A stretch of DNA of 64,000 bases from Anaerolineales bacterium (GTDB lineage Bacteria > Chloroflexota > Anaerolineae > Anaerolineales > UBA4823), in assembly GCA_003105035.1 (NCBI GenBank), contig PQAL01000003.1:186001-250000 (forward strand). The letters run 5' to 3'. Each line of letters opens with the position of its first letter. Positions within the stretch are counted from its first letter, which is position 1. The position numbers were made by a program, and so were the translations under genes. The notes beneath the pieces were generated by a model. That model saw nothing but the letters and a program-made list of their open reading frames with translations, had not been told where the DNA came from and ran no database searches. Shown here piece by piece: positions 12,366-29,536 of the stretch.

Positions 12366-13100
12366 TCAAACCCACTCAATGGTTTCCTGAGTGGCAAGCG
12401 ACAGGTCAGAATAATACCCGCGGCGATGTTCCGGCAGCATACCAGACAGGATATACATGGCTTCATCGGTCATCAGGCGCAGCCTGTCACGCCTGGCACG
12501 CTGCCCGTCCATTTTGAACCGAAATGGGTGTCCGAAGATGACCCGTGCGCCAGGTTCGCGCCAGCGGTGTGAGAAGGGGTAAGTCGGGTAACCGATGGTC
12601 CCATCGATGGCGACTGGCACGATAGGCACACCGGCACGCGTGGCAAGGAAGGCAACCCCTTCCTTCCCCTGGCGCAGCTCCGGGCCGCGGTGAGCCTCTG
12701 GAGCCACCAGGATGATCTCTCCTGCCTTCAACACTTCCAGTGCACCCTGAACAGCCCGCCGGTCAGTCTCCTCGCGCTGGACGGGTATCACGCCATACAT
12801 GCGCGGGAAGATACCGACGATGGGATAGCCGTACACCTCGATCTTTGCCATGGGGACAATGATGCGTGGCAGTGACCCAATGACGACGAATGGGTCCACG
12901 AAGTTGATGTGGTTGATCATCAGGATCGCCGGACCCTCGGAGGGCACATGCTCAACCCCCTCCACGTGATCTATTTTTGCAAACAGGTTGAAGCCGATCA
13001 CCCGCAGCAGAAAACGCAATACGCGGCGGCGACCCTCCCAATGGCTGTGATCATACCCATCGGGCGACCACACCGACGACCGGTCACCTTCCCCGGTCAC
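12366..13100 (-). CDS. 1-acyl-glycerol-3-phosphate acyltransferase, PlsC family
   Basis: This 244-residue membrane-associated acyltransferase has the catalytic HX4D box in NHINFVDPF and the substrate-binding block APEAHRG, both typical of the PlsC/LPLAT family. The family transfers an acyl chain to lysophosphatidic acid to make phosphatidic acid. The start is a GTG whose GTGA overlaps the stop of the preceding acyltransferase, implying translational coupling. It is the last gene of the cmk-plsC-plsC series. Having two tandem copies suggests different acyl acceptors or chain preferences. Confidence 0.88.
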   Translation of the reverse strand: MTGEGDRSSVWSPDGYDHSHWEGRRRVLRFLLRVIGFNLFAKIDHVEGVEHVPSEGPAILMINHINFVDPFVVIGSLPRIIVPMAKIEVYGYPIVGIFPRMYGVIPVQREETDRRAVQGALEVLKAGEIILVAPEAHRGPELRQGKEGVAFLATRAGVPIVPVAIDGTIGYPTYPFSHRWREPGARVIFGHPFRFKMDGQRARRDRLRLMTDEAMYILSGMLPEHRRGYYSDLSLATQETIEWV

Positions 13101-13780
13101 TCCAGCTCCTCGGGGTGGAGGTAAACCCCATGGTATTCAGGGGGCATCATACTGGCAATGGCCAGCATGATCAGGTCGGCGTTCGACTGCAGAGACTTGT
13201 GGCGGTCAGCCCCCTTGCCCTCAATGGGGGGCAGGTGGATGGGCTTCCCAATACGCATCTCGAGGGGTGGGCGCTTAAAACGGAACGCACGGGGTAAGAA
13301 TTCGTCAGAAGTGCCCAGGATGGCCACAGGGACCACCGATACGCCAGTTTTTTCCACAATAAATGCTGCGCCTGGCCTGGCGCGATTCATGCCGGGTTGA
13401 TGTGCACGGCGCCCTTCTGGCGCCATGCACAAAGGCCTGCCGGATTGCAAGGCAGCGATAATCATCTTCAATGGCTTGTGTTCAGGCTCATCGCGGTTGA
13501 TAGCGATGCCATGATAAAGACGAGCCAGGAGGTCCTGACCCGGCCTCTGCCAGACTTCCACCGCCCCCAGAGCTTCGGGGATAACCGGCCAAAATGCAAT
13601 GACCATGGGTGGCTCAATATGCGAGATATGGTTGTAGGCGATCAAGTAAGGACCTTGAGCAGGGATATTCTCCCATCCACTGATCTTGACATCACTCAGA
13701 ATGTGGAAAACCAACCTGAAGACCGGGCGCAAAGTGGCTCGGGCGATACGATTAGCCAGGGGAACCGAGTACTCAGTCAT
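13097..13780 (-). CDS. PlsC-like acyltransferase with HX4E box
   Basis: This 227-residue protein is a paralogue of the next gene. The substrate block APEGRRA is conserved, but the catalytic box reads NHISHIE, so the usual aspartate of HX4D is glutamate. The ATG at 13780 forms an ATGA overlap with the cmk stop and is preferred over an in-frame start at 13843, which lies inside cmk. The downstream end overlaps the second acyltransferase by four bases. It may be an acyltransferase with altered substrate or activity. The family call is safe; the exact reaction is not. Confidence 0.85.
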   Translation of the reverse strand: MTEYSVPLANRIARATLRPVFRLVFHILSDVKISGWENIPAQGPYLIAYNHISHIEPPMVIAFWPVIPEALGAVEVWQRPGQDLLARLYHGIAINRDEPEHKPLKMIIAALQSGRPLCMAPEGRRAHQPGMNRARPGAAFIVEKTGVSVVPVAILGTSDEFLPRAFRFKRPPLEMRIGKPIHLPPIEGKGADRHKSLQSNADLIMLAIASMMPPEYHGVYLHPEELE

Positions 13781-14457
13781 TGCCCAAAGACCATGGCTTT
13801 CGCAGCTTCGAGGACCTGGTCGGCATCCATGCCATCGGAGCACAGGATGCGGGCATCATCAGCAGGTCGCAGGGGGGCTACCTTGCGATGAGAATCGATC
13901 TGGTCGCGCTTGCGCATAGCATCCAGAATTATGGTGTAATCGGCAGGCTCGCCACGCCCGCGTAACTCTTCATACCTGCGACGAGCGCGCTCTTCGACGG
14001 ATGCATCCAGGTAGATCTTCAGCTCAGCCTCGGGCAGCACCACCGTCCCAATATCGCGGCCGACCATGACGACCCGCCCACGCTCACCGATGCGGCGCTG
14101 CTGGGCAGACAGGGCTTTGCGCACGCCGGGATAGGCAGATACCGGCGAGACATAGCGCTCTACATCCGGCTGGCGGATATCCCAGGTGATGTCGCGTCCA
14201 TCAATAATTACAGTGTACGCCCGGCCGTCTTGCATCGAAGGCGGTTGGACGTCAATTTGGGTTTGCTCTGCCATGGCCGTAATGGCAGTTTCATCGGTAA
14301 TCTCAACTCCCCTGGACAATGCAAGCCAGGTGATTGCCCGGTACATCACGCCTGTATCAAAATACAGGTACCCTAGTGCCTGGGCGAGGCGATGGCCGAG
14401 GGTGGATTTCCCCGATGCGGCTGGCCCATCAATGGCGATAATTTTAGGTATACCCAT
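13777..14457 (-). CDS. cmk: Cytidylate kinase
   Basis: This 226-residue protein has the P-loop GPAASGKST at residues 11-19, directly after the N-terminal strand, followed by YFDTGVMYRA, a hallmark of CMP kinases. A GRDIGTVV stretch and the C-terminal basic region also fit. It phosphorylates CMP and dCMP with ATP. It sits 26 bases after a GT-C membrane gene and overlaps the downstream acyltransferase by ATGA. Pairing of cmk with plsC genes is common in Gram-positive-type bacteria. Confidence 0.96.
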   Translation of the reverse strand: MGIPKIIAIDGPAASGKSTLGHRLAQALGYLYFDTGVMYRAITWLALSRGVEITDETAITAMAEQTQIDVQPPSMQDGRAYTVIIDGRDITWDIRQPDVERYVSPVSAYPGVRKALSAQQRRIGERGRVVMVGRDIGTVVLPEAELKIYLDASVEERARRRYEELRGRGEPADYTIILDAMRKRDQIDSHRKVAPLRPADDARILCSDGMDADQVLEAAKAMVFGQ

Positions 14458-14483: not shown

Positions 14484-16259
14484 TCACGGGGTGGCATTCT
14501 CGCTGGCAGACGGGCCTCCGCCCGGGAAGCTATCGGTCCGCGTCCATAAAATGACTTGCTCCTGGCTCAGGGGTGCCTTGCGGAAGGCCAGCCAATTAAT
14601 GAAATCTGTCGGGAAAACTCCCTGCCAACCTGGGGACAGGCGCCAGATGAAATCCTGGCTGCGGTATTCCTGGACCAGACGAGGCTCCTCGGCCTCTTTG
14701 AGGGTGATCACAACCGGGGGAGATTCTGCACTTGCCAGGCTTGCCTCAGAGCGGGCAAAGGGAAAGTCGCGTAAAGCCCACTGCATGGCTGGTGAGCCGG
14801 TCATATCCACCACTTCTAGCTGGTCGCGTAGGCCTGTATTCCAGCTGGATAAGTCTGTTAGCGTTTGCATCAATTGGCCAACCTGGCCCGGGGTAGGCGA
14901 GCTGCTCCACAGCTCCTGGGCTCCATTTTGCCGCACGATCGACATGCCCCAGCTACCCGCAAACAGGAACAGGCCGAGCATCAGGCACAGTGACCAGACC
15001 ATGCCCAGGCTGGCTGCTGAATTCGCCTCTTTTGAAGAAAAGGCGGTCATCACCAACAGCACGGCCACCAGCCCCAGGAGAAATGCCCCGGCAATAATGG
15101 CCGCATACAACAAAATGTTCGCCTGGTAGCGCCCGATAGCCAGAAAATTGAACCATCCGATCACGGCAAAGATGCTGAGCAAGACCCCCAGGGCTCCCGC
15201 CACCAGGTAAGTGTCACGCTCCTCACCACCCAGGAACGAACGGCTAATTTCCAAAGATGCCAGGGCCCACAACGGCACAAGAGCCCAGGAAAGGTCGCTC
15301 ACCTGCCTTCCAACGTAAATAAACGGCAGGATAATCGCAATCACTACCCAAATGCTCAACCCGACCATCACCCGGCGGACATCTGGCTCACTTCGGTACC
15401 CCAGCCAGGCTTTTCCAGCCCCGATCAGCCCGAACAGGACAGCAATCAGTTGATATACGAGCAGGCTGGCTGGTAGGCGCAAATAGGGAATGCCACTGGA
15501 GGTCAAGAAGGTTTGCACGTACGCTGACACGCTCTCAGCCAGGGCGCCTAGCCCCTGCGGATGGCGGAAAAGTAGCGTGCCCACTGCCAACAAAGTAAAG
15601 AGAAAGGTTATGCCAGCGACCCTGAGCAGCGCAGCCGGAATAGGATGTGTATCCGCAACAGATTCATCTTCCTCCCGGGGTTTCGTCATCCAGCGGCTGA
15701 CAAGTAGGTATATTCCCCAGCTTACCCCCAGGATCAGCAACCCCTGGAGGAAGGCTGGGCCGGAAAGCACTGCCAACCCGGCACAAACCCCGCTCCAAAC
15801 CATGCGGCGATTGTAGAGGCAAGCCAGGGCTAACAGTGTAAATGCCAGGGCGGGCATCGGGCTGCCAACCTGTCTTGAAATAGAGACAAGACCAGGGTCG
15901 AGCGCCAGGCCAAATGCCATCACCAATCCGGCGCGCTGCCGCCATGCTGAATCGCCCATCCAGCCACGGAAAAAGAAAGGCAGCCAAACCAGCAAGCTGC
16001 CCGACAGAGCGGGGATAAAACGCGCCAGCGAATTGGTGCTGCCAATCAATGAAAATAATAAACTGGTAAGCATCAGGTAGCCCGGCTGACCGCCTAAAGT
16101 GACCGTATGTCCACGTGCCAGATCCAACGCTTGAAGAGCCCAGGTTGCTTCTCCATCGCTGAGCGCACCTGCACCCAGCTGGTAAAAGCGGATCCCCAAC
16201 GCCAGCACGAATGTCAGCGCATAAAACCAAACTTCAGGTGTGACCTTGTTCGTCTTCAT
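14484..16259 (-). CDS. GT-C / GT39-like integral membrane glycosyltransferase
   Basis: This 591-residue polytopic protein has about ten to twelve predicted membrane helices. An acidic pair in the first extracytoplasmic loop (D35 and E37 in ALSDGEA) corresponds to the catalytic acidic motif of PMT/GT39 proteins, which transfer sugars from polyprenyl-phosphate donors outside the membrane. The C-terminal 150 residues are soluble and probably extracytoplasmic. A terminator separates it from the larger GT-C cluster upstream, so it may be co-transcribed with cmk instead. Acceptor and sugar cannot be inferred. Confidence 0.8.
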   Translation of the reverse strand: MKTNKVTPEVWFYALTFVLALGIRFYQLGAGALSDGEATWALQALDLARGHTVTLGGQPGYLMLTSLLFSLIGSTNSLARFIPALSGSLLVWLPFFFRGWMGDSAWRQRAGLVMAFGLALDPGLVSISRQVGSPMPALAFTLLALACLYNRRMVWSGVCAGLAVLSGPAFLQGLLILGVSWGIYLLVSRWMTKPREEDESVADTHPIPAALLRVAGITFLFTLLAVGTLLFRHPQGLGALAESVSAYVQTFLTSSGIPYLRLPASLLVYQLIAVLFGLIGAGKAWLGYRSEPDVRRVMVGLSIWVVIAIILPFIYVGRQVSDLSWALVPLWALASLEISRSFLGGEERDTYLVAGALGVLLSIFAVIGWFNFLAIGRYQANILLYAAIIAGAFLLGLVAVLLVMTAFSSKEANSAASLGMVWSLCLMLGLFLFAGSWGMSIVRQNGAQELWSSSPTPGQVGQLMQTLTDLSSWNTGLRDQLEVVDMTGSPAMQWALRDFPFARSEASLASAESPPVVITLKEAEEPRLVQEYRSQDFIWRLSPGWQGVFPTDFINWLAFRKAPLSQEQVILWTRTDSFPGGGPSASENATP

Positions 16260-16339: not shown

Positions 16340-18982
16340 TCAGGGTACTTTAAAAATCGTCAGATTGCCTTGCTTGAATACCGGCTCAAGCACCTGATTT
16401 AGCTTACGCAAGGCAGTGCTCAGCGTGCAACCCGCGCTCGCCTGGTTGCAAATATGCTGGATGTAATTCATCTCGGGCTGACCCAGGATGACGTAATCCA
16501 CGCCATACTTGTTCAGGAGATCTAGCGTCAACTGTCCATCGGAGGAGGTGTAGATCGTAGCGATATCTGGCTCACGCTTGGCTTGCTCATCATAACTACC
16601 GCGCCATTGGCTCTCGTGGACTGCCCAACCCAGCATGGTTGGGAAGCCTGTGAAGGCGCTCATCCGTCCCTCATAGGTGTACGAGCCACCCAAGGGAGGA
16701 ACACTGGGTGCTTCGAGGATCACCGGCACATCCCCAGCTGGCAGCCCTTGCTCAGCATTGGCATCCAGCCACTCGATCGCCGCCCAGTCATCCGGGTTAG
16801 CCTGGGCGATCGAGCTCGAGCCATCCAGATTAGCCGGACCACTAAACCCACCAGCCCGGCTGGGATAAGCCATCAGCGGGTAGACCAGGCCTAAACCGAT
16901 AAATACGATAGCCCCAGCCGCGAATATGATGCGGCCGGCAGGGCGCTTGAGGTGAGCCAGCAGCCACCAGGTGCCATAGGCACCGGCGATTCCCAGCATG
17001 ACCCAGGCTTGATAGTAAAACTTGAATACGGTGTTCATGCGCACGCCGAAACTATCGCGCAGGTAGATAAATTCGACGATCAAGGTCAAGGCCAATCCGG
17101 TAAAAATTAACAACAAGGCAAACAGGTCACTGCTGAAGGCCGGTAAAGCATGTGCCGGTTCCTCGCCGGGCTCAGCAATTGCTGAACGACCTTTCAATAC
17201 CGCGCCCACACTGGCAAGTACCAGGGCCAATAAGGCGGTTAGCATGAGCAACAGCCAGGGATCGCTGAGGCGCGCCTGTATACTGGCCAGGTAGGCTTCC
17301 TTCAAGCTCATGCCTCCTAACACCTGCTGCAGGGTGGCCATTAATGAGCTATCTGGAGCAGGGTTCAGAACGAGGAAGGCCAAAGCGATGATCAGCATGA
17401 TCGCCAGGAATATCCCCACGCAGATTCCCAGGATGCGTAGCCACCAGAAAAGGAAAGAACGCCACACGCGCTGGCCCGCTTCACCTTGCTGGTGGAGATA
17501 CACGGTCAGGAAGCATATAACCAGGAAGACCAGTGTGCCAAACATGACCAGGTATTGGACCAGCCGGGTGGGTGGAAATACATAGGGCAGGACGCCAGCG
17601 GCTTGTGAGCTGAAACTTAGATAGAAAAAGATATATAGGAAAATAGAAGCGATTCCCAGGCCTATGCCGAGCACGACAGAGCGCACTATTGCCTCCCAAT
17701 CCAGGTGGCCCCTCTGCATAACCAGACCCAGGCCATACGCCAATACCACTAACCCCAGGTAGATGGGCAGGTCCCAGGTGTTCAAGAAACCCAGGGCACC
17801 CAGGATAAGGGCGGAGAACATAAACAATAACCAGTCATTATCCAGGGCAAAGGCTACCGGATTCCACCAATGTGAACCTGATTTGTGCTCAGAATCTACC
17901 TCCTGCTCAACCTCCCGGCGGCTGCTTTCCAGCTGACGCACCAGTAAGTTGAAGGCCATACCAATCGCCAGCAGCACGAAGGGCAGAGCCAATACGTGTG
18001 GGTGGTTGTCGCCCAGCAAAAAACTAAAGAAAGGAAATTCATCGATCGGTTGAACGATCATATTCTGCCCGAGGAAATTCTTATCCGCCAGGACGCGCGA
18101 TGCCTTCCACCACCACAGAAAGATATCACCCGTGTACCACGAGCCGGTTACCGGTGCCTGGACCAAACCCGGGATGTCGATCCAGTTCCAGAAGCGCTCA
18201 GACAGGATCCCGCGGGCATGCAGCGATTCAAGCACACCTTCCAGGTTACCCATCACCGCCACCAGCACCCCGCCCAACACACCAGCAGCCAGGGCAGGGC
18301 CAGAGCGCAATGGAGGGTCACCAACCTTACTACGAGCTTTTCGGCTATAGGCTACCAGGTTGTATACCACACCGAACGCGCCAATCAGGGTAAGGGCAAA
18401 CAGCAGGGCATCATACAGGTCGAATGCCACACCGGAGATTGCTGTTGAAATCCGGGTGAGCGTGGCCAGCATCACATAGCCGTAATAATAGTATGAGATG
18501 GCGAAGCCTGACAGCCAGGGGTCAAGGGGTGGGAAGTGCTGGCTGCGTAAGATGGCATTCTGGAAGGCGATTTCCATGAATTTCTCACCACCCGTAGGCT
18601 CAATCTTGTAAGGAGCATAAGCCCGCAGGACAGCCCAGGCTACCAGGGCCAGGGCAAATAACACCTCAACTGTGGCGACCAGCTTCCATTTGTCCTTAAG
18701 GAAGCCACCCAAATTGGGGATAAGCGTGCCCCGGCAGCGAAAATAAAACCAGGCGGAGATGCCCGCCACGAGCAGGATTGCCAGCAGGCTGCCACCCAGG
18801 TCATTATTCACCAGGCCGGTACTGGCACCCAGCCACAGGAAATAACTGGCCAGCAGCAGACCGAGCGCCTTGCTGAAGGAATAACCACGATCGGGCAGCC
18901 ATCGGAAGATGCGCATGGCAGTCGGCAGAGCCAACCAACCCAGGATCTCCATGAGCAGCCACCAGACCAGTACCTGGATCAT
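16340..18982 (-). CDS. DUF2298 (Chlor_Arch_YYY) integral membrane protein
   Basis: This 880-residue, very hydrophobic protein carries the family's YYYxG motif (SYYYYGYVM, near residue 162). It follows the PPLDPWLSG block, and MNTVFKFYYQAW lies later. The N-terminal helix segment with PDRGYSFSKALG matches the second half of the neighbouring 1852-residue protein, so the two are paralogues. The C-terminal 170 residues look soluble and extracytoplasmic. The family is uncharacterised and thought to be related to GT-C membrane glycosyltransferases. Its ATG overlaps the upstream stop by four bases, suggesting coupled synthesis and perhaps a complex with the fusion protein. It is the last gene before the terminator. 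Confidence 0.9.
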   Translation of the reverse strand: MIQVLVWWLLMEILGWLALPTAMRIFRWLPDRGYSFSKALGLLLASYFLWLGASTGLVNNDLGGSLLAILLVAGISAWFYFRCRGTLIPNLGGFLKDKWKLVATVEVLFALALVAWAVLRAYAPYKIEPTGGEKFMEIAFQNAILRSQHFPPLDPWLSGFAISYYYYGYVMLATLTRISTAISGVAFDLYDALLFALTLIGAFGVVYNLVAYSRKARSKVGDPPLRSGPALAAGVLGGVLVAVMGNLEGVLESLHARGILSERFWNWIDIPGLVQAPVTGSWYTGDIFLWWWKASRVLADKNFLGQNMIVQPIDEFPFFSFLLGDNHPHVLALPFVLLAIGMAFNLLVRQLESSRREVEQEVDSEHKSGSHWWNPVAFALDNDWLLFMFSALILGALGFLNTWDLPIYLGLVVLAYGLGLVMQRGHLDWEAIVRSVVLGIGLGIASIFLYIFFYLSFSSQAAGVLPYVFPPTRLVQYLVMFGTLVFLVICFLTVYLHQQGEAGQRVWRSFLFWWLRILGICVGIFLAIMLIIALAFLVLNPAPDSSLMATLQQVLGGMSLKEAYLASIQARLSDPWLLLMLTALLALVLASVGAVLKGRSAIAEPGEEPAHALPAFSSDLFALLLIFTGLALTLIVEFIYLRDSFGVRMNTVFKFYYQAWVMLGIAGAYGTWWLLAHLKRPAGRIIFAAGAIVFIGLGLVYPLMAYPSRAGGFSGPANLDGSSSIAQANPDDWAAIEWLDANAEQGLPAGDVPVILEAPSVPPLGGSYTYEGRMSAFTGFPTMLGWAVHESQWRGSYDEQAKREPDIATIYTSSDGQLTLDLLNKYGVDYVILGQPEMNYIQHICNQASAGCTLSTALRKLNQVLEPVFKQGNLTIFKVP

Positions 18983-21900
18983 TGGATCACCTCGTAGATG
19001 ACCGTATTCTCATCCCGGTAGACTTCATTCCAAAAATTACCGACGAACGCCGGGAACTTATCCAGCCCAGAGCCGGGATAGGTGAGCTGCTCCAGCTGCC
19101 CGACCACGATATATCTAACCTGGTACAGGTTCAGGAACTGCTTGACGGTTTGCGTATCGATGGTTGTGTAAAACTCATCCACATCCATAATGCGCTTGGT
19201 CACCCATTCGGGTGGGTTGACGGCGCGTTGTTGCTGCTGGTGCCACTCCCATCCGACCACGCCAGGCAAGCCCGTATTGATGGTGAAACGCGTGTACCAG
19301 CGGTACAGGTTGCGCGAGTTGGCTTCCACGATCACCGACGAACCATGCACGTTTTCCTGCATCCACTGGATGGCGCGGTAATCCTGGCTTAAATCCATCG
19401 CAAGCCCGCGCTGGTTGGCTGGGGTGCTCTCGGTAGTGTTAGTATAATCTTCATAATAAGTCGCATAGGGCATGTAGGCCATGCCATCCAGGGTGTGGGG
19501 GGCGGCAGGCACCCAACGATCCTTGATCTTGGCCATCGTGCCGTACAAGGTGAATAAAAAGGCTGAGAATACCAGGAAAGCAAACCCCACCCGCCAAGCT
19601 CCACGCCAACCGGGCAGCCAGCCCCGCATCGGCTCGAGCAGCCATCCCAAAGCAGCCGCCGCACTCAGGGCAAACAACCCCCAGACCTGCAGGTAAAACT
19701 TAAACACGGTGTTCATGCGGCCAATATCCCCGCGCACCACCACCATCTCGACCATCAAAGTGATAAGCAGGCCGGTCCCCACCCAGAAGAGCACCAGGCG
19801 CTTCACGTCAGGCAGCCCAGGCCGTAAGAGCAACACCCCGGCCCATGCCGCCAGTGGCAGGATGACCCAGACCATGGCAGCGCCTCGCCCAATGGGAAGC
19901 TTGCTTAGGAAAGGCATGGCTTCGATCCCAGGAATCTTGATGCTCACCAGCAAGCAAGCCAGTATGAGCAGCACAATCCCGGCAATGATCAGCCCGGCGT
20001 ATTTCTCCAGCTTGCGCAGTGAGGCCAGGGGCGTATTGGCCATCCACTCGCGCGTCTCCCATACCATCCAGGAGACAATGACGAACAGGAACAAGCCCCA
20101 ATGGGTTAAATAGGACCACAAGGGGGTATGCGTACCCGTCCAGGGGATGACGGCAGAGTATGGTTGGGCATACCATAAGCGGTAAGGTAGATATAAAGCG
20201 TAGGATAAGACCGCCAGGAGCAATATGCCTGCCCCAGCAATGAGCAAACGTTTTAAGGTCAGGCTGACCTGGGGAAGCCAGGTGAAACGCTGTCGATCGG
20301 CATACCGAAAAAGGGCATAGCCAAGGACGAGCATCCCAATGGGCAGGTAGGCATAAATATCAGAGAGATTGGTGGGGTAAAGGGCGCCGATCGCCAGGCC
20401 ACCCAACAGCAAGCTCAGTAAGCCTGCCCCACGACTGCTCGAATGAGCTTTACCCAGCAGCACCGCCACAGCCCAGGCAAGAGCCAACATGGCGATGGCC
20501 ATGGCGATCATGTGGGCATGCAAGTCGCCATACAGGAAGGTGAACAGGGGAAATTCAGTGATTGGTTCAACGTCATTCGGGGCAGGGATAGCCCGGCTTG
20601 GTAGCCAATACCAATCAGCTAGGCCATAAGGTAGCTGGGCGCCGTGGAACAGGTTGTTCCATATTCCCACAGGCAGACCGGCCAGGCGAGTGAGCAGGGG
20701 CGTCGTGTCGGTCACTCCACCCTGAACACCCAGCTGCTCCCAGCCCTTGAGAAACATGCGCAGGGTGCCCAGGTTGCCGACGATGGTCATGCCGACCGCC
20801 GAAGCTACCCCGATCCAATACGGCCGGCTGGTGGAAGCTTCAGGCGGCTGGTCACCATCAGTGGCGGCCGGGTCATCAGGCTGCTCGACTCCCTGTGAAC
20901 GAGGGTGACTGAGGTTGTAGCCAATGCAGAAGGCTCCCATGGCAACTAGGCTGAACAGGGTGGGGAGGATCAGGTTGTAGGCAATGGAGGGCACGATGCC
21001 CAGCCACTTGACCAGCACACCGACGAAGACAAAACCCCAGTAGTAATAATTCATATAGCCACCAGCGTACCAGGGGTCATAAGGCGGGAAGGAACTGCTC
21101 TTCAGGATGGCGTTGAAGTAAGAAAAGTCCATCGGCTTTTCCCCACCCTTCCACGGGTGCCACAGGTCGGGGTTACCCAGCCGGACGAGCAGGAAGGCCA
21201 CGAAAAATACCAGGAAAAGCCCTTCAATGATCAAGAAATACTTGCGCCGCGAGCGCCATTCCTCGCGCAGCTCGACCCGCTGACGGTACGCCAGATAGAT
21301 CCCCACCGCGGCCATGATCAGGATGACCAGGGTAATGGTCAGGCGGCTGAAGGAGATATTGACCGAGCCAGCCAGCCAGGTAAGGTAAGCCAGGATCAGC
21401 ATGCCTGCCGTACGGGCCAGGGGGTAACCGCGATCCCGCAAGCCTGGCAGGGTAATGCGCAACAGGGGATAGGTCAGCAACCCCAGGACAGCTACGCTCA
21501 GGTACCATACTATTACTGCAAGGATCTGGTAGCGATTTTGCGGGGCCTGTGGATCAAACAGCTGTGACCAGGTGCCCCCAATGGTCTGCAGGTACAGGCG
21601 TACCTCAGGGAGAATCAAATTTGCCGGGTGGTAGGCAGCCTTCTTGGGCGTGATCCGCACGATCTCGCCGAAATTCGCCTGGCTGAGTATCTGGCGCATC
21701 TGATCGGAATTGTAGCTGCTGGTCTTTTTGAAGACCAACACCTTGGGATGGTCGTAAACCGTGAAAGCTTCCTCGGCAAATTGGTCGTTGACGCTGAACG
21801 GACCGATCGTTGGATCAGATTGGAAGATCGCCACAAGCTCGAAACCCAGCTTGCCCTGGAACAACCCGGGTTCGGCCACGCTGTAGCACCAGCCGATATC

Positions 21901-24537
21901 CTTGTCATCCGGGCAGCCCAGCAGGTAGCGATAATGCAAACTGCTCATTGGAAAACGCTCAGGCAGGCGTGGTAGCGAGCCCCATTGGCGATTGGAGCTG
22001 ATCAGGATGTACTCGGTGCGGTCATACACGTCGATGAAATGCTCAAGCTTGTCGGCATTATCATCGGTGTACATGTTAAAGTTCAGGCCGGGGGTATAGA
22101 TTCCGCCAAAAGGATCGTAGCCATCCACCCGCAAGGGCAGGCCATCATCCCAATCGCCTTCATTCGCAATGGCTGAGCCCTGGACGGTGAGTCTACCCTC
22201 TCCAGAAACCAACGCCAGGGAAAGGTTGTAATTCCGGCCAGCCTCCAGCACAAGGGGCGTATCCAGCGTCATGGTATAGCCCGTACCAGCGCCGAAATCC
22301 GCAGTCAGGCTGGCAGTTACCGGCGGTTGAGACTCCTCGCCCGAAGCGATGCTGATCTGGATTGTTTGCTGGCCCTGAGCTGGGGTCTGATCCACCAGTT
22401 GGCTCAGAGAGATTGACTCCAGGGAACCATCGACCTGGATCGGCAAGGATACTGTAAATTCAGAACCAGGCTGGATCAGGCACTGGGTGGGTGTGGGGAT
22501 GGACTGCACGGTTTTAACACCAGCAGTTAGAATGGTCAGTTCAAGCGGACCGCAGGCGTTCAGTACCCGGGAGGAATCCGGCGTGGTGAGCATCAGCGTG
22601 TACTCGGCACCAGCCTTGACTGGCAGGGGTGTAGCTAGTGCCAAGATTTCTTTACTCGAGAAGGAGATTCCAGATCGAGACGGGGTGACCATCTCAGATG
22701 ACTGGCTTAACGGTACCTCACCGGTTGTGCTAAAAACGAATACGTCCAGTGCTACCGGCTGGGCCAGCTCGTTGGCAACATGCCCGAGGGCAACCTCGTT
22801 CACGGTACCGCTTTCATGAGCAGTAAATACGGTCTGGTATGGCAAATCAGCCTGGATGGTGATGCCATACGGGATTGAGAGCGGCTGGTTGTACTCCCCG
22901 CTCCCGGTTTGGATGTGCAGGTTGATCGGTCCAGGGATATTCTGGTAAATCCAATCAGAGGCAGCCACGCGCGTGATGGGACGGGCATAGATCAGGCTGA
23001 ACCCCAAGGCCCAGAGGAGCGTGGCGACCAATACGAGGGCTCCCCCCAGGATTGCAACGGGCTTTGCCCACTTCACAGCTGCGGGTTGATGCTCGTCTTC
23101 CGGAGATGTCGCTCCTCCCCGTTTACGGCGCCGGAGATTCCATAATTCCACCAGTCCCCAGGCAGCATAGATGGTCAGGATGGGATAAGTGGGCATCTGA
23201 TAACGCATGGTCGGGTTAAACTGCATCGACTGCCAGACGAAATAAAACCCTCCCCATGACCAGAGCACAACATGTCGCTGCCAGTCTCCTTTGAGCATGC
23301 GCCAGCCCGCCCACAGGAAGCCGAAAGCAGCCAATATCGCCAGGGGAATACCCAAACCCCATTCCGCCATGTTTTGGGCTGAAAACCAGATCGGTCGGCG
23401 GGCCCATTGCAGCGAAGGTGGAAAGTCGATGTCACCGGCCGCCTGGGCACGCTGCTCACGGATATTGGACACCCACTGCGGGTTGGGACGCACCCCAAGG
23501 AACCCAGGTCCCAGGAAGGCATAGGGTTGGAAAAGTCGAAATACCAGTATGCTCACAACGGCTGCAATACCCAGGTACACAAACGCATTAATCAGCCAGC
23601 GCGAGCGCTCGGCAGCGGGCTTGCGGAAGATCACCACCGCATAAGCCACCGGAAGCACAAAGGCCACCGGTGCGGCGCTTAATTTGGAAGCGACAGCGCA
23701 ACCCAGGGCAATCCCAAAAGCAATCGACGGGCCAAAATAGGGCTGCTTGATGAAGTCGGCGATACGGGCAGACGTTGATAGGGGAGCATTGCCCCGCTGG
23801 CCCTCAGCGGGACCTTCCGGCGAGTCTTCACCAGGTTCAGGCTGTTGAACAACGACTTTCCCATTCAACAGGCTGATGCACACGGCAAAATAAACCGCCA
23901 GCAGGGTAAAGAAGCTGAAGAAGGTATCCATGGTGAAGAAGTGCGACTGCTGGATGTTCAGCACCGTGAAGGCAGCAAAAGCTGCCGCCAGGAGGCCCAC
24001 CGACCGGCTGAACAGGCGCTTCCCAATCAGGTATACCAAGACGACCGACGACAGATCGATAATTGCAGAAAGGATTCTGCCGACGATGGTCATCTCATTG
24101 AAGCCGGAATGACCGTACACCCACTCCACAATATAGCGGGTGATGAACATCGGTAGCGTACCGTAAACATAAAACGAATGGCCGCGGTTATTGGGGTTGA
24201 GAGGCGAGCAGGAGGCATCGAAATAGCCGCCCCAATTCTTGCAATCCGGGTAAGCATCAGGGTATTGCGCCCGCCAGGAATTGTTTACCGTGTTGGGAGG
24301 CGTCCCCAACTCGGCATCGGGCGTGTCGATTGGGGCGATATCCGTCCCAACCCAGATCAGGAAACGCTCATCCGGGTGTAGATATTGGAATTCACCCCAC
24401 TGGATACCGATAAAACGAAAAGCCGCGCCGATCAAGAGCACGAATACCAGCAGGATGTCGTAGATCAGGGGGGTGACCCAACGAGCTCTTTTCTGCTGGA
24501 CAGGCAACTGTGATGAAGAGGGAACGGCTTCAGTCAT
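18979..24537 (-). CDS. GT39-type glycosyltransferase fused to a DUF2298 (Chlor_Arch_YYY) domain
   Basis: At 1852 residues this is the largest protein in the window. Residues 20-520 are a GT39/PMT-like membrane domain with an acidic first-loop motif (LHPDERF, D56-E57). Residues about 530-835 are beta-rich, without helices, and probably extracytoplasmic; 836-985 resemble the soluble tail of GT39 proteins. From about 1000 to the end is a complete DUF2298 domain with NYYYWGF near 1162 and MNTVFKFYLQVW later. The frame is intact. Its ends overlap or adjoin other GT-C genes. A natural fusion of a sugar transferase with a YYY domain implies the YYY domain acts on the same substrate, but this is inference. 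Confidence 0.9.
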   Translation of the reverse strand: MTEAVPSSSQLPVQQKRARWVTPLIYDILLVFVLLIGAAFRFIGIQWGEFQYLHPDERFLIWVGTDIAPIDTPDAELGTPPNTVNNSWRAQYPDAYPDCKNWGGYFDASCSPLNPNNRGHSFYVYGTLPMFITRYIVEWVYGHSGFNEMTIVGRILSAIIDLSSVVLVYLIGKRLFSRSVGLLAAAFAAFTVLNIQQSHFFTMDTFFSFFTLLAVYFAVCISLLNGKVVVQQPEPGEDSPEGPAEGQRGNAPLSTSARIADFIKQPYFGPSIAFGIALGCAVASKLSAAPVAFVLPVAYAVVIFRKPAAERSRWLINAFVYLGIAAVVSILVFRLFQPYAFLGPGFLGVRPNPQWVSNIREQRAQAAGDIDFPPSLQWARRPIWFSAQNMAEWGLGIPLAILAAFGFLWAGWRMLKGDWQRHVVLWSWGGFYFVWQSMQFNPTMRYQMPTYPILTIYAAWGLVELWNLRRRKRGGATSPEDEHQPAAVKWAKPVAILGGALVLVATLLWALGFSLIYARPITRVAASDWIYQNIPGPINLHIQTGSGEYNQPLSIPYGITIQADLPYQTVFTAHESGTVNEVALGHVANELAQPVALDVFVFSTTGEVPLSQSSEMVTPSRSGISFSSKEILALATPLPVKAGAEYTLMLTTPDSSRVLNACGPLELTILTAGVKTVQSIPTPTQCLIQPGSEFTVSLPIQVDGSLESISLSQLVDQTPAQGQQTIQISIASGEESQPPVTASLTADFGAGTGYTMTLDTPLVLEAGRNYNLSLALVSGEGRLTVQGSAIANEGDWDDGLPLRVDGYDPFGGIYTPGLNFNMYTDDNADKLEHFIDVYDRTEYILISSNRQWGSLPRLPERFPMSSLHYRYLLGCPDDKDIGWCYSVAEPGLFQGKLGFELVAIFQSDPTIGPFSVNDQFAEEAFTVYDHPKVLVFKKTSSYNSDQMRQILSQANFGEIVRITPKKAAYHPANLILPEVRLYLQTIGGTWSQLFDPQAPQNRYQILAVIVWYLSVAVLGLLTYPLLRITLPGLRDRGYPLARTAGMLILAYLTWLAGSVNISFSRLTITLVILIMAAVGIYLAYRQRVELREEWRSRRKYFLIIEGLFLVFFVAFLLVRLGNPDLWHPWKGGEKPMDFSYFNAILKSSSFPPYDPWYAGGYMNYYYWGFVFVGVLVKWLGIVPSIAYNLILPTLFSLVAMGAFCIGYNLSHPRSQGVEQPDDPAATDGDQPPEASTSRPYWIGVASAVGMTIVGNLGTLRMFLKGWEQLGVQGGVTDTTPLLTRLAGLPVGIWNNLFHGAQLPYGLADWYWLPSRAIPAPNDVEPITEFPLFTFLYGDLHAHMIAMAIAMLALAWAVAVLLGKAHSSSRGAGLLSLLLGGLAIGALYPTNLSDIYAYLPIGMLVLGYALFRYADRQRFTWLPQVSLTLKRLLIAGAGILLLAVLSYALYLPYRLWYAQPYSAVIPWTGTHTPLWSYLTHWGLFLFVIVSWMVWETREWMANTPLASLRKLEKYAGLIIAGIVLLILACLLVSIKIPGIEAMPFLSKLPIGRGAAMVWVILPLAAWAGVLLLRPGLPDVKRLVLFWVGTGLLITLMVEMVVVRGDIGRMNTVFKFYLQVWGLFALSAAAALGWLLEPMRGWLPGWRGAWRVGFAFLVFSAFLFTLYGTMAKIKDRWVPAAPHTLDGMAYMPYATYYEDYTNTTESTPANQRGLAMDLSQDYRAIQWMQENVHGSSVIVEANSRNLYRWYTRFTINTGLPGVVGWEWHQQQQRAVNPPEWVTKRIMDVDEFYTTIDTQTVKQFLNLYQVRYIVVGQLEQLTYPGSGLDKFPAFVGNFWNEVYRDENTVIYEVIQ

Positions 24538-24581: not shown

Positions 24582-26777
24582 TCAGGGAATCACCACTCCT
24601 CCCGGTCCAGGTACTGCACCTGGACTCGATGACGCCTTTGGAACCATGTAGATGTAGAAATCCTTTCCAACCTGCGAATTGTAACTGGAGACCGTCCCAT
24701 GAGGGAACAATTCGTATAGCAGTTTAAGGTCAGCTTGGTCTTGTGGATTGATGATGAACAGCTTCGGCTGGGGGAAGTTGACAGTGTTATCAATTTGGTC
24801 AGGCATGATAGCCATATCCCGGGTAGGGTCACCGGCATTCATGCCCACCAGGCGCGTGTCCACCCAGTATGGATAAGGGACCACATAGGCATTGTTCATC
24901 CCGCCATACAGCTCGCCAAAATCACGGATGACGCTACCCATCTCGGAGCTATTGATGGAGGCCAGCACATAAGCCCGTTGGTACTGGTTGAAAACTAAGT
25001 CATAATTCCCCAGGGCGGAGAAGAAAATGAGCGCAATCGCAAGCCCCCACGAAAACCTTGACCCGCTTTTGGAAGGCATGCGTTGCTCAATACCCGACAT
25101 CAACCCATCCAGGGCAATGGCAATGATGACAAAAACCGGCACAATGGCGCCTCCCGCCCGGTTCAAAGCCGGGTTCTCGTCCGGAAAGGCCAAAGATAGT
25201 ATGGATGGCAGCATCAACACCGGTACTGAGATGAGCAAGGCTAGGTCTTGCCAGGTACGCCTGCGGATGTAGCGTACCAGCAGCAAGACCACACCGAGGA
25301 AGTACAGGGCTGCGGAGATAACATCCAGGGCCGGGCTGTTGGTCACCGAGTGGACCCAGATATTACCGTCCGACCAGAAGAACATGGTGGATGCGTTCCA
25401 TAAGTTCTTAATGAAAATCAGCAAGGCGGGGCCAGGCAAAGAACGCTCAGATTCCCCCAGGCGTGAAAAAGCCCGGTAGTCAAAAAGGGAGGGATATTCG
25501 ATCGCAAAGCGTAGCAGGGGCAGGAAGACAAGCAGGGAAATCAGGATCAGCACCATTAGCCCGGTAAATACCTGTAGCCTGCGGCCCCGGGCCTGAGGGT
25601 GAAGCAAGAACAGGCCAACAACGATCAACACGAGAATGGGCAAGATGCGGATGGGCGTGTAGCCGTGCAAGCCAATCCCCAGGGCCAAGCCCGACAGGAT
25701 GAAATCGTTGCGCCTGCCAGTACGCAGGCCACGCATCAAGTAAAACAAGGTCGGAGCGACAAATAGCGGGTAGAGCGGGAAGCGTAGTCCGACACGGGAA
25801 ATCACATTCGGCCAGTAACCAATGCCCGCAAACAGTAAGGCGAACAGTCCCACCCGGCGGTTGCCCAGCTCCTTACCCAGCAAGTAAACGAACGGCAGGG
25901 TAAGTAACCCCACCAGAACGGTGCCGATCTTCAGGCTCAGATAGGTATAGCCGGTGTGCAGCAGCTTGATGATCCCTGCCGTCAGGTACATTTGAATAGC
26001 TTCTCGCCCGGTATTGCGCGGGAAGAAGATCTGCGTTTGCCCATGGAGCACATCCCAAATATCCAGCAGCTTCTCGGCATGATCGCTGACCATCTCCGGG
26101 GGCACCTGGGTAATGCGGAAGGTGCGGAAGAAGACCACCAGCGCTAACACGGCAATGACGAGTAAAGCCCAACTGGAGATGGAGAACTTCCACGGAAAGT
26201 GCAGGTGATCCTTGAGCCACTGCCACCACCCCTTGAATGGCAGCTCTCCCTGCCAGAAAGCCAGGCAGGTAAATATCACCGCCAGAAGCCATACAGAGAC
26301 ATTGAGGACGGTGAAACGGTTTCCCCCGAGGAGCAGGAAGGCTACCAGGGCCAGGGGCAGACTGATGATCAGCCAGCGAGAACGCACGCGATAATCTTCG
26401 GGGTGATCTTCGGGCTCGGGCAGCTCGGCCGGCGCCCACTCGCCTTTCCATACTGCCCACACCAGCACGCCTGCCGCGAGTAAGTACAGGATCACGCCCG
26501 GGATCCACTGCCGGTTGGGGCGGGGAAGCAGGGATAATTGGGCCACCAGAGCCAACCCGAGGGCCAGCAAGGAGCGCCAGGGGAGCTCGAGGTGTGAGCG
26601 GGGCAGCACACGGGCCTGGGTTGAATCAGCCAGCAACTCCATCTGCTCAGGACGTTCTATGGATTGTTCAGTACTTTCTGGGGATGTTTGGGGGGCAGGT
26701 TCAGCGGCGGGAATTGCCAGTGGCTTCCCGTGCAGCAGGGATTTAAGGTAATCCAGAACCGTTGGTTCACGGTTCAT
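24582..26777 (-). CDS. GT39-family integral membrane glycosyltransferase
   Basis: This 731-residue protein has a soluble proline- and glutamate-rich N-terminus (about 65 residues), a block of helices and then a GT39/PMT core. The core has an acidic loop motif (MVSDHAEKLLD), a long run of helices, and a C-terminal extracytoplasmic domain ending in a proline/glycine-rich tail. It should use a polyprenyl-phosphate sugar. The ATG overlaps the stop of the upstream methyltransferase (ATGA), and the next GT39-DUF2298 gene begins 44 bases downstream, so all belong to one transcript. The sugar and acceptor are unknown. Confidence 0.85.
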   Translation of the reverse strand: MNREPTVLDYLKSLLHGKPLAIPAAEPAPQTSPESTEQSIERPEQMELLADSTQARVLPRSHLELPWRSLLALGLALVAQLSLLPRPNRQWIPGVILYLLAAGVLVWAVWKGEWAPAELPEPEDHPEDYRVRSRWLIISLPLALVAFLLLGGNRFTVLNVSVWLLAVIFTCLAFWQGELPFKGWWQWLKDHLHFPWKFSISSWALLVIAVLALVVFFRTFRITQVPPEMVSDHAEKLLDIWDVLHGQTQIFFPRNTGREAIQMYLTAGIIKLLHTGYTYLSLKIGTVLVGLLTLPFVYLLGKELGNRRVGLFALLFAGIGYWPNVISRVGLRFPLYPLFVAPTLFYLMRGLRTGRRNDFILSGLALGIGLHGYTPIRILPILVLIVVGLFLLHPQARGRRLQVFTGLMVLILISLLVFLPLLRFAIEYPSLFDYRAFSRLGESERSLPGPALLIFIKNLWNASTMFFWSDGNIWVHSVTNSPALDVISAALYFLGVVLLLVRYIRRRTWQDLALLISVPVLMLPSILSLAFPDENPALNRAGGAIVPVFVIIAIALDGLMSGIEQRMPSKSGSRFSWGLAIALIFFSALGNYDLVFNQYQRAYVLASINSSEMGSVIRDFGELYGGMNNAYVVPYPYWVDTRLVGMNAGDPTRDMAIMPDQIDNTVNFPQPKLFIINPQDQADLKLLYELFPHGTVSSYNSQVGKDFYIYMVPKASSSPGAVPGPGGVVIP

Positions 26778-27514
26778 TCTTTCGCCGCCACCACAATCAG
26801 GCTTTCACCCATACGAAGGGGAATAATACTCCATCCAAGAACAGCTTGCAAGCCCCCCGGCAGGCCAAAGAACAGCTTCTGCAGGGCGGTGGGGATGACT
26901 GGGAAATAAGGAGCATCCCAAAACCCATCGGAAAAGGCCTTTACCACCCGAAACTGGTTGAGACGCAAGCAGGCCAGCCATTCCTCGGGAGGCTTCAGGT
27001 TGATGTGGGTGGGATCCTGATACCCAATCCAGCCTGGGCCTTTCCTTTTCCGCATGGGCGAGCTCAAGTTAGGAGTGGCAAGGATGAGCGCACCGCCAGG
27101 CTTCAATACGCGGCTCATTTCGGCGATGGCTTGCTCAGGATGCTGCAGATGCTCCACCACATGCTTGGCTATCACGATTTCAAAAGAGGCCGGTGGAAAG
27201 GTAAAGCAATCATCGGCGGAAAGGACCGCAAAGTGCCCACCAGGCACATTCAGCTTCGCCTTGGCTAACGCCCATGGGTTGATATCGGTGCCATACACAC
27301 CATAGTGCTCTGCCAGCCAGGAGAGCAGGTGGCCCATACCGCAGCCCAGCTCCAGTACGGCACCCCTGGCAGGCCCAAAGCGGCATGCCAGATGAGCATA
27401 ATATCGGTTTGACCACCAATACTGGCTGTAACGCTTGAAGTTCACCCCAGCGTAAGGACCGGTTGAAAAGTAATCCTGATTAAACGGCTGGGTGCCGGGA
27501 GCAATCTGGCTCAT
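26774..27514 (-). CDS. Class I SAM-dependent methyltransferase
   Basis: This 246-residue protein has the SAM-binding glycine motif VLELGCGMGH, the acidic end of strand 2 (YGTDINPWAL), and the post-I motif IVIAKHVVEHLQHPEQA typical of Methyltransf_11 proteins. The C-terminal 40 residues are hydrophobic and may touch the membrane. It overlaps the downstream GT39 gene by four bases and follows another methyltransferase by six. Its substrate is probably a sugar, lipid or glycan made by the same cluster. Confidence 0.88.
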   Translation of the reverse strand: MSQIAPGTQPFNQDYFSTGPYAGVNFKRYSQYWWSNRYYAHLACRFGPARGAVLELGCGMGHLLSWLAEHYGVYGTDINPWALAKAKLNVPGGHFAVLSADDCFTFPPASFEIVIAKHVVEHLQHPEQAIAEMSRVLKPGGALILATPNLSSPMRKRKGPGWIGYQDPTHINLKPPEEWLACLRLNQFRVVKAFSDGFWDAPYFPVIPTALQKLFFGLPGGLQAVLGWSIIPLRMGESLIVVAAKE

Positions 27515-27520
27515 GGGTTA

Positions 27521-28306
27521 TCAGGTGCTCCGCGCAACAAAGAAGGTGAACGTACCCTCAGGATCAGGCTGGGCGATGGCATAGCGGCGTACATAACGCT
27601 CGGTAAAGAACAGGTTCCAGCGGTAAGGGGCGATGATCCAGTGCCCCGTGAGGGCATGTGGAAGTAACGTGGGCCCACCTAGGTAATGGCCCCACTCGAG
27701 GGTGCGCATAGCTTGGGGAGAAAAATAATGCCACCACTTCTCAAGTTTAAAGCCTGCCCCCTCCAGCCAGGTTTGCCAGGTTTCAGGCCATACGGCATGT
27801 TCAACACGCGACATGCGCCTGAACCAGGCAGTGTAGGCCTGTCCAGCGCCTTTTAAGGCAATTTTACCCAGCAAGCGGGGTATGGAAAGCTCACTCAGGT
27901 AGAGCGGGTTAGGCACGCAAAACAGGAAAATAGCCCCGGTTGCCATCACCCGCCTGAGTTCAGCCAGCACCTGCTGCACATGTGGGATGTGTTCCATGAC
28001 CGAATTGCTGACCGCGCTGGAGAAATAGCCTTCTGGGAACGGTATCCGGCCGCCATCCGCCTGCACTAGTGACTTATAGCCACCATATTTCCTCGCCTGG
28101 TGGATAGGCCCGGTCCATGGGTCAAGCCCAACATCCAATTTACGCTCGAAGGTGATGCTGGCAAAATGTCCATCGCCACAGCCCAGGTCGAGGGTGGGTG
28201 AAGTCAGCTCAAACTGCTGGTAAAATTCAGCCTCCACAGCCCTGAGCATGGCCCGAAAATAGGGCAGCTCACGCAGGTTTAGCCAGAGGAAATCAGGGTG
28301 GGTCAT
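27521..28306 (-). CDS. Class I SAM-dependent methyltransferase
   Basis: This 261-residue protein has SAM motif I (LDLGCGDGHFAS) and a VMEHIPHVQQVLAELRRVM segment like its downstream neighbour, but the two differ outside the core. Its later residues (LGGPTLLPHALTGHW) are not typical of small-molecule methyltransferases, and substrate is not predictable. It sits between a GT4 glycosyltransferase and the second methyltransferase, consistent with decoration of a glycan or lipid carrier. Confidence 0.85.
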   Translation of the reverse strand: MTHPDFLWLNLRELPYFRAMLRAVEAEFYQQFELTSPTLDLGCGDGHFASITFERKLDVGLDPWTGPIHQARKYGGYKSLVQADGGRIPFPEGYFSSAVSNSVMEHIPHVQQVLAELRRVMATGAIFLFCVPNPLYLSELSIPRLLGKIALKGAGQAYTAWFRRMSRVEHAVWPETWQTWLEGAGFKLEKWWHYFSPQAMRTLEWGHYLGGPTLLPHALTGHWIIAPYRWNLFFTERYVRRYAIAQPDPEGTFTFFVARST

Positions 28307-28348
28307 GTGAAAATCACCAGGATAGTGGGGCGATCACATCATCAGGGA

Positions 28349-29536
28349 TCAGGAGGCATTCTCCACCGGCGAGCGGGTGATCGTCCTTTCTTTGAGCAGG
28401 CTGCGAAACAACTGTTCATAAGCTTCAGCAATATGCTCGGATGAAAACATCGTTTTTACTCCCTCAACATCGCCGGTATAGCGCTCCGGCTGATCGAGCA
28501 CCTCGTTAATCCCCTGCGCCAGGGAGTGAGCATCTGCCGGCGGAATGAGGCGCCCCATGCCAGTGATCTTCACCGGTTCGCGCACGCCAGGAATATTGGA
28601 AGCCACTACCGGCGTGCCGCTGGCCATCGATTCCACCTGCACGATCCCGAACGATTCGGTGCTGTTGGTGCTGGGTAAGACGGTCACGTCGCAAAGCTGG
28701 TAGAATGCGGCTAGCTCCGCCGCGGGAAGGATTCCCATGAAGGTCCAGTGATTATCCAGGGCTTCGATCCTTGGTTTCAGCTTGGCGGCATACTCCTCTT
28801 CACCAAGGACGTTCTGGTACTGCCCGACATGCAGCACGCGTGCCTGTGGATGCCTCTTTAAGATCTCGGGCATGGCTTCCACCAGGTATTCCACCCCTTT
28901 CTCAGCGGCCAGGCGGGCAACCATCCCAATCACGCGCTGACCAGGCTCCAACATGGCTTTTTCCTTTAAGCTCTGCAGGTCATCCTGTGTGGGGGAAGCC
29001 AGTTCCACCGGGGTGGGGATGGCGCGAATTTTCAGCAGGTAATGGCGCAGGAAGGCGGATTCTCGGGCGTAATCCAGGGTGTTTACCACCACCTCATTCG
29101 ATAGACTTAATGACATATGGTTAGCCAGGTGCGATACCTGGTTGGCGATGGCATGGATGAAGCCTTTAGGAAGCAGCAAGTCACAATGATAAGTGAGCAC
29201 CACAGGCTTGTGCAGCAAGCGGCTGATCAGGGCGATATAGGAAGCGTCAAGCTGAGGCAGGTGCAGATGTACGACGTCTGCCCGGCGGATGTTCACCCAT
29301 GCCCAATACCACATGCTCGGCATGAGCACCCCTTTGCTGACGTGCATCAGCACATGCGGCCGGATGACCTGCACGCCATCCCTGACCTCACGAGCAGGCA
29401 GGCTACGGTCATAGCGCGAGGTCAGCACGGTCACCTGGTGCCCACGCCTCGTCAGGGCACGCGCCAGGCGCTCGGCGTAAATGGTCAGGCCTGAATAATG
29501 GGGGCGGTAGTAGGTAAGGGTGGTCAGGATCCGCAT
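28349..29536 (-). CDS. GT4-family glycosyltransferase (GT-B fold)
   Basis: This 395-residue cytoplasmic protein has the two Rossmann-like halves of GT-B enzymes: an N-terminal acceptor domain starting RILTTLTYYRPHYSG and a C-terminal Glycos_transf_1 domain. The donor-binding EX7E motif is visible in ESFGIVQVE, followed by MASGTPVVAS. It likely transfers a sugar from a nucleotide-sugar donor to a lipid such as diacylglycerol or to a polyprenyl-linked glycan. It lies in the middle of the membrane-glycan cluster. Confidence 0.92.
   Translation of the reverse strand: MRILTTLTYYRPHYSGLTIYAERLARALTRRGHQVTVLTSRYDRSLPAREVRDGVQVIRPHVLMHVSKGVLMPSMWYWAWVNIRRADVVHLHLPQLDASYIALISRLLHKPVVLTYHCDLLLPKGFIHAIANQVSHLANHMSLSLSNEVVVNTLDYARESAFLRHYLLKIRAIPTPVELASPTQDDLQSLKEKAMLEPGQRVIGMVARLAAEKGVEYLVEAMPEILKRHPQARVLHVGQYQNVLGEEEYAAKLKPRIEALDNHWTFMGILPAAELAAFYQLCDVTVLPSTNSTESFGIVQVESMASGTPVVASNIPGVREPVKITGMGRLIPPADAHSLAQGINEVLDQPERYTGDVEGVKTMFSSEHIAEAYEQLFRSLLKERTITRSPVENAS

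Follow-up and report, generated by a model that had tools for sequence, protein, structure and literature searches.

An 1852-residue protein encoded in the window, by which we mean the whole 64,000-nucleotide stretch of Anaerolineales DNA analysed here, probably joins in a single chain two complete GT-C glycosyltransferases that differ in subtype; both would face outward and pass sugars in turn to one acceptor. The gene and the parts of its product that bear on this reading are as follows.

18979..24537, minus strand: whole fusion gene, 1852 aa, ATG to stop.
22939..24486, minus strand: first GT-C module, residues 18-533, 11 predicted TM helices, PMT/ArnT/AglB-like (AlphaFold2, VIA, PMT_2/PMT matches).
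24361..24381, minus strand: LHPDERF, residues 53-59, outer loop 1 of module 1; D56 and E57 in 53/53 sequences.
23200..23205, minus strand: R-Y, residues 445-446, outer loop 5 (before the second-last TM helix) of module 1; invariant in 53/53.
22534..22899, minus strand: beta-sandwich copy 1, residues 547-668 (profiles, AlphaFold2 model).
22168..22524, minus strand: beta-sandwich copy 2, residues 672-790, homologous to copy 1 (profiles, AlphaFold2 model).
21583..22155, minus strand: SOL1, alpha/beta extracytoplasmic domain of module 1, residues 795-985, conserved across the phylum.
18988..21528, minus strand: DUF2298 / Chlor_Arch_YYY module, residues 1004-1850, predicted GT-C fold (Pfam, NCBIfam, AlphaFold2, Foldseek, VIA).
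21283..21528, minus strand: three additional TM helices preceding the second GT-C core, residues 1004-1085, predicted topology.
21127..21147, minus strand: GGEKPMD, residues 1131-1137, outer loop 1 of the YYY core; E1133 in 81/81, D or E at 1137 in 81/81.
20512..20526, minus strand: DLHAH, residues 1338-1342, end of outer loop 2 of the YYY core; D1338 in 81/81, H1340 in 80/81, H1342 in 81/81; possible metal site.
19708..19719, minus strand: RMNT, residues 1607-1610, loop 6, before TM12 of the YYY core; R1607, N1609 and T1610 in 81/81.
18985..19401, minus strand: C-terminal globular domain, residues 1713-1851, resembling the AglB C-terminal domain (Z 10.2, 118 residues, 2.5 A).

The original prediction of an intact frame holds at exactly these coordinates, with 1852 codons between ATG and stop; it was silent on the strand, which is the minus. 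It was also right to place LHPDERF and a YYY domain in one chain. The former begins at residue 53 and NYYY lies at residue 1163, with Pfam matches to PMT_2 and PMT at residues 150-219 (2.5e-7 and 6e-5) and to DUF2298 (PF10060) at residues 1048-1622, where the score (2e-114; 383.7 bits against a cut-off of 27.8) marks a full member. The NCBIfam model TIGR03662 (Chlor_Arch_YYY) spans residues 1004-1850 at 476.7 bits, against a cut-off of 300.25, and is matched over positions 1-726 of 727.

DUF2298 occurs in 37 of the 41 genomes used for checking the frame (the window's own and its relatives), and because 31 of these 37, the window's own and 30 relatives, carry the intact fusion, the frame is neither a chance product nor broken. 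The other six hold contig-edge or partial pieces and, in G031, a broken frame. That broken frame is the sole support we found for the idea that an assembly or sequencing artefact has fused two genes, to which we give practically no credence: set against it are the 31 intact genomes, a phylum-wide clade of fused YYY domains and the 32 fetched orthologues, each an uninterrupted single frame (1593-1886 aa, 36-56% identity), which rule out an artefactual joining. Two genomes of the same order each hold two distinct full-length fusion paralogues (G033, L043 and L047; G040, L056 and L063).

In the AlphaFold2 model of residues 1-1000 (alignment of 53 sequences, pLDDT 88.5) the N-terminal half has a GT-C fold. 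Comparison with known structures using VIA gave Z values of 24-29, among them AglB at 28.8, STT3 at 28.1, ArnT at 27.5 (362 residues, 4.1 A) and Pmt4 at 26.0 (388 residues, 3.6 A), so the original prediction, which was to be abandoned if the N-terminal part had no GT-C fold, survives on the likeness to AglB, ArnT and PMT. Its GT39 label is nevertheless too specific, because the PMT and PMT_2 matches barely pass their cut-offs, and over 70 residues, PMT_4TMC is missing, and ArnT, AglB and PMT are about equally near. The domain pair that marks GT39 was not found in module 1: PMT (PF02366) lies just above its cut-off, and a Pfam search of the fusion protein returned no PMT_4TMC (PF16192) at E<=0.1. 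Module 1 thus resembles bacterial PMT (GT39) and ArnT (GT83) in its GT-C fold, its 11 TM helices, the acids of loops 1 and 2 and a last outer loop with an R(-x2)-Y type site (R441 and Y444 in MtPMT; PMC12331936), but differs from them in the missing PMT_4TMC, the 70-residue extent of the PMT_2 match and the second GT-C module that follows. The GT-C motif itself is present, with the loop-1 acids D56/E57 in 53/53 sequences and R445 (53/53) followed by P452 (46/53); in outer loop 2, Q196 and H199 are invariant and position 204 is D in 43 and E in 5 of the 53.

DUF2298 itself is also predicted to have a GT-C fold. The AlphaFold2 model of residues 985-1852 (alignment of 81 sequences) reached a pLDDT of 94.0 and a pTM of 0.95, and the 12 best Foldseek entries for it are all GT-C. 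So are the 44 best VIA rows, at Z 14.5 down to 7.0, with unrelated rows beginning at 6.3; chance alone can give helical bundles Z values as high as 13, a range which these values overlap, and the case for the fold therefore rests on the uniform GT-C identity of those rows. They comprise AftA (14.5), STT3 (13.7), DPY19 and AglB (both 11.7), ALG12, Pmt4, ArnT, PglB, AftD, Emb, PimE and kin. Neither phmmer nor a profile search matched DUF2298 to any solved GT-C sequence in the PDB, and hhalign of YYY against module 1 aligned just a stretch common to both inputs and gave no sequence-level relation, so the assignment of module 2 depends on the predicted fold; that YYY is a recognisable duplicate of module 1 was rejected on the same null result. 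The original prediction had taken the fusion as direct evidence linking the family to GT-C chemistry. The link stands, but through the predicted fold of DUF2298, as fusion alone shows functional association and nothing further.

Module 2 lacks some of the marks of known GT-C sequence families. WWDYG occurs in 0/81 sequences and Pfam returned no STT3 (PF02516) match, and in the last outer loop R1607 is present in 81/81 with no P after it in RMNTVFKFYLQVW. Since the Rx4-14P motif is lacking there, we assign module 2 to GT-C by its fold and place it in none of the known GT-C sequence families.

Predicted helices, hydropathy and the positive-inside charge bias agree with 11 TM helices in module 1, as in PMT and ArnT, and with 3+13 in YYY, the count of 13 being an estimate that includes two short core helices (1238-1251 and 1556-1570). 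The two halves would accordingly belong to different GT-C subtypes, the second resembling STT3 and DPY19. Since module 1 finishes on the outer side, three further helices, being an odd number, would bring the start of the second core back inside.

In both modules, the alignments show acidic, His and Arg residues that are invariant on the predicted outer face, in 53/53 sequences for module 1 and in 81/81 for YYY, second and stand-alone YYY copies included. Those of YYY include R1315 and E1328 in loop 2 and N1390 in loop 3, besides the motifs listed above. GT-C enzymes typically carry conserved acids in loop 1, R, D or E in loop 2, a site in loop 3 and R or K in the last outer loop (PMC6801728); PglB uses D56, R147, D154, D156 and R375, with His replacing D156 in AglB (PMC6801728), and MtPMT needs D74, D176, R441 and Y444, in loops that correspond to the sites of module 1 (PMC12331936). 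YYY has the acids of loop 1, but spaced as E-x3-D/E instead of DxD, and its other departures from the pattern are the missing P after R1607, a short loop 5 and the lack of WWDYG. With residues equated by loop position and not by structural superposition, the YYY core is like STT3/AglB/PglB and DPY19 in its 13 TM helices in the same order (PMC6801728), loop-1 acids, the R and D-x-H of loop 2, where AglB too has D-x-H (PMC6801728), N in loop 3 and R in loop 6; with AglB it also shares the C-terminal globular domain. It differs from all of these in WWDYG, loop 5, the missing Pfam STT3 match and the three extra N-terminal helices.

These residues also bear on the main rival to our reading, in which YYY is catalytically silent: a GT-C-fold partner, comparable to PIG-U in the GPI transamidase, that holds a lipid acceptor or donor for the PMT-type module. 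We consider it unlikely. Inactive GT-C-fold proteins do exist, PIG-U among them (PMC7801869), YYY has neither Rx4-14P nor the WWDYG of STT3, and it always occurs near other GT-C genes. Against a silent partner, 81/81 distant copies, stand-alone ones included, keep the same acidic, His and Arg residues in the outer loops, and YYY proteins exist on their own, one of them replacing the fusion in the genome G201.

Between the two membrane cores, the original prediction described a single beta-rich domain of some 300 residues. The region is indeed beta-rich, but it consists of two homologous sandwiches (547-668 and 672-790) followed by an alpha/beta domain (795-985), and the "middle domain" of residues 530-835 mixed the sandwiches with the start of the conserved SOL1. 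Of 33 proteins of the order, 19 have a single sandwich unit of about 115 residues and 14 have two, and a profile built from single copies detects both units in every two-copy protein. Outside the order the unit is absent from 19 of 20 fetched fusions, the exception being L152, of the same class. On the tree of fused YYY domains a single change (99*) accounts for its presence, and copy number requires 9 steps in all. Elsewhere in the window's genome the search found no sandwich beyond the two copies of the fusion gene.

The suggestion that this region is a carbohydrate-binding module holding the acceptor for both active sites, put forward in the original prediction, now appears doubtful. In its favour are the beta-sandwich of the N-half model, the precedent of EmbC, another GT-C enzyme, with its acceptor-binding, CBM-like jelly-roll after the TM core (PMC3044687), and weak matches to families of secreted proteins, namely choice_anch_R (16.8-22.4 bits, below the cut-off of 30) and, in 1 of 53 members, DUF4082 (5.5e-5); these two families gave no other match. 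The viral-capsid jelly-rolls in the structure search are weak fold look-alikes. Set against acceptor binding as a general rule are the absence from 19/20 out-of-order fusions, the repeated changes of copy number and an identity of 17-22% at 601-750, where conservation within the protein is lowest. The few conserved aromatics mostly form part of NExxWDDGLP, an edge motif of the domain that follows, with no conserved surface-type aromatic cluster in the sandwich region and no Pfam CBM match in the beta region. The sandwich is unlikely to be an essential acceptor site, because it evolves fast, varies between one and two copies and is limited to the order plus one relative in the class. Within this lineage the sandwiches possibly bind the acceptor, but this cannot be general; they may otherwise be a lineage-specific spacer, or a domain making weak glycan or protein contacts.

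DUF2298 scores above the cut-off in 266 of 399 Chloroflexota genomes, with many frames of 1400-1900 or 2500-2870 aa. Profiles derived from the orthologues, searched against 20 distant long proteins picked by length from about 18 families, gave the order GTC1-SOL1-YYY in 20/20, several with a second YYY copy in the same chain. Six proteins of 2353-2766 aa from other Chloroflexota lineages (L145, L157, L159-L162) carry two YYY copies behind the N module, which, if the fold holds, makes three predicted GT-C modules per chain. A fully supported branch of the YYY tree separates stand-alone YYY from all fused and second copies; the tree, which has no archaeal or other outgroup, fits a single old fusion.

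Each module can exist alone, since two genomes carry separate module proteins. The single-contig genome G201, of the same order (L184, G201:C1:1488000-1502000, and L182), has an operon reading GT4, methyltransferase, PMT_2, YYY, YYY. A YYY of 838 aa stands there where relatives have the fusion, the fused N module is missing, and about 0.5 Mb from the operon lies a GTC1-SOL1 protein of 817 aa, which may be either the displaced N module or a paralogue. G037 has an 801-aa GTC1-beta-SOL1 protein, sandwich included, in addition to its fusion. That G201 does without the fusion counts against the reading as two enzymes.

The fusion gene lies in an operon-like cluster ordered cmk, Agl23-like, YYY, fusion, PMT_2, two methyltransferases, GT4, flippase-like and lepA, of which the members nearest to it are these.

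14484..16259, minus strand: Agl23-like membrane protein (TIGR03663 61 bits, below the cut-off of 126).
16340..18982, minus strand: stand-alone YYY, 880 aa, sharing 4 nt (ATGA) with the end of the fusion gene, which it also follows directly in most relatives.
24582..26777, minus strand: PMT_2 membrane protein, 731 aa, 44 nt upstream of the fusion (Pfam).
26774..29536, minus strand: two methyltransferases and a GT4 glycosyltransferase, operon-like cluster of the fusion (Pfam).

Of 72 usable Anaerolineales loci, 61 have the stand-alone YYY as the next gene after the fusion, and PMT2 and Agl23-like genes are present in 65 of 80; at six loci (L102, L103, L109, L110, L111, L138) the fusion adjoins the Agl23-like gene without a stand-alone YYY between. 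Two neighbouring PlsC-type acyltransferase genes (12366-13843 of the window) lie by the cytidylate kinase gene and flank the cluster. Elsewhere in the window's genome, a 1157-aa frame with its neighbours (G000:C36:168297-169931; L173, L174) has a full TIGR03663 (Agl23) match at 235.9 bits and, being far above the 435-aa model length, is possibly another long membrane fusion.

This neighbourhood could be taken to mean that DUF2298/YYY is a translocase of lipid-linked glycans and not a transferase, as TIGR03663, the family next to it, bears the name "flippase activity-associated protein Agl23" and Pfam identifies a flippase-like LPG_synthase_TM gene in the cluster. We regard this as very improbable: the fold search returned GT-C enzymes, with MurJ, MATE and other transporter folds at noise level, and the conserved residues gather on one face, as in an enzyme.

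We therefore return to two GT-C enzymes in one chain, a tandem that probably acts outside the membrane in successive steps on a shared acceptor. The predicted folds, the outer-face residues, the phylum-wide fusion and the operon are its basis, and from them we infer the donor class, catalysis by both modules, the order of the steps and the acceptor. In this model, module 1 (residues 18-985) would be an enzyme of the PMT/ArnT type with 11 TM helices and an outer C-terminal domain of its own, and module 2 (1004-1852) the DUF2298/YYY enzyme, its 13 core TM helices in STT3/DPY19-like order after three TM helices. Each would take its sugar from a polyprenyl-phosphate carrier, with an acidic residue in the first outer loop (D56/E57 in module 1, E1133/D1137 in module 2) serving as base or metal ligand, an Arg as phosphate ligand (R445 and R1607, respectively) and D1338-x-H1340-x-H1342 as the likely metal site of module 2. 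The two would add two sugars in succession to a single acceptor, which would be either a secreted protein or a glycan lipid of the surface, and the other GT-C-like proteins of the cluster may act together with the fusion. A bolder version, which we offer tentatively and hold to be somewhat less likely than not to apply in full, combines one chain, two successive extracytoplasmic transfers and two GT-C subtypes with a module 2 that would be the first member open to characterisation in a metal-dependent (E...D-x-H-x-H) 3+13-TM GT-C family covering all DUF2298/YYY proteins of Chloroflexota and archaea.

Compared with Chlor_Arch_YYY (TIGR03662/DUF2298/PF10060), of which the C-terminal half is a full member, the protein differs by its fusion behind a PMT-type module and by a predicted fold that assigns the family to a functional class. 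The TIGR03662 family note appears to include longer chains that carry a PMT-like motif at the N terminus, as well as paired YYY copies with TPR repeats, and the extended architecture as such may already be on record there. EmbC and AftA offer a further parallel, AftA as the top structural match of YYY and EmbC through its jelly-roll after the TM core, but they share no sequence similarity with the fusion and have one GT-C module per chain. The literature searched held no functional account of DUF2298 and no biochemistry on activity, donor or acceptor, made no mention of TIGR03662 or PF10060 and contained nothing on tandem or dual GT-C chains.

The family has no assigned function, yet roughly two in three of the sampled Chloroflexota genomes encode it, as do some archaea. 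With a GT-C fold and specific residues proposed for catalysis, the function of DUF2298/YYY would become directly testable. In the whole genome G000 no STT3 (PF02516) match rose above the curated cut-off and, because the genome has no clear STT3, the fusion and its kin are candidates for its extracytoplasmic glycosylation. A chain holding two GT-C subtypes would, if true, provide a ready system for studying how sequential sugar transfers are coupled.
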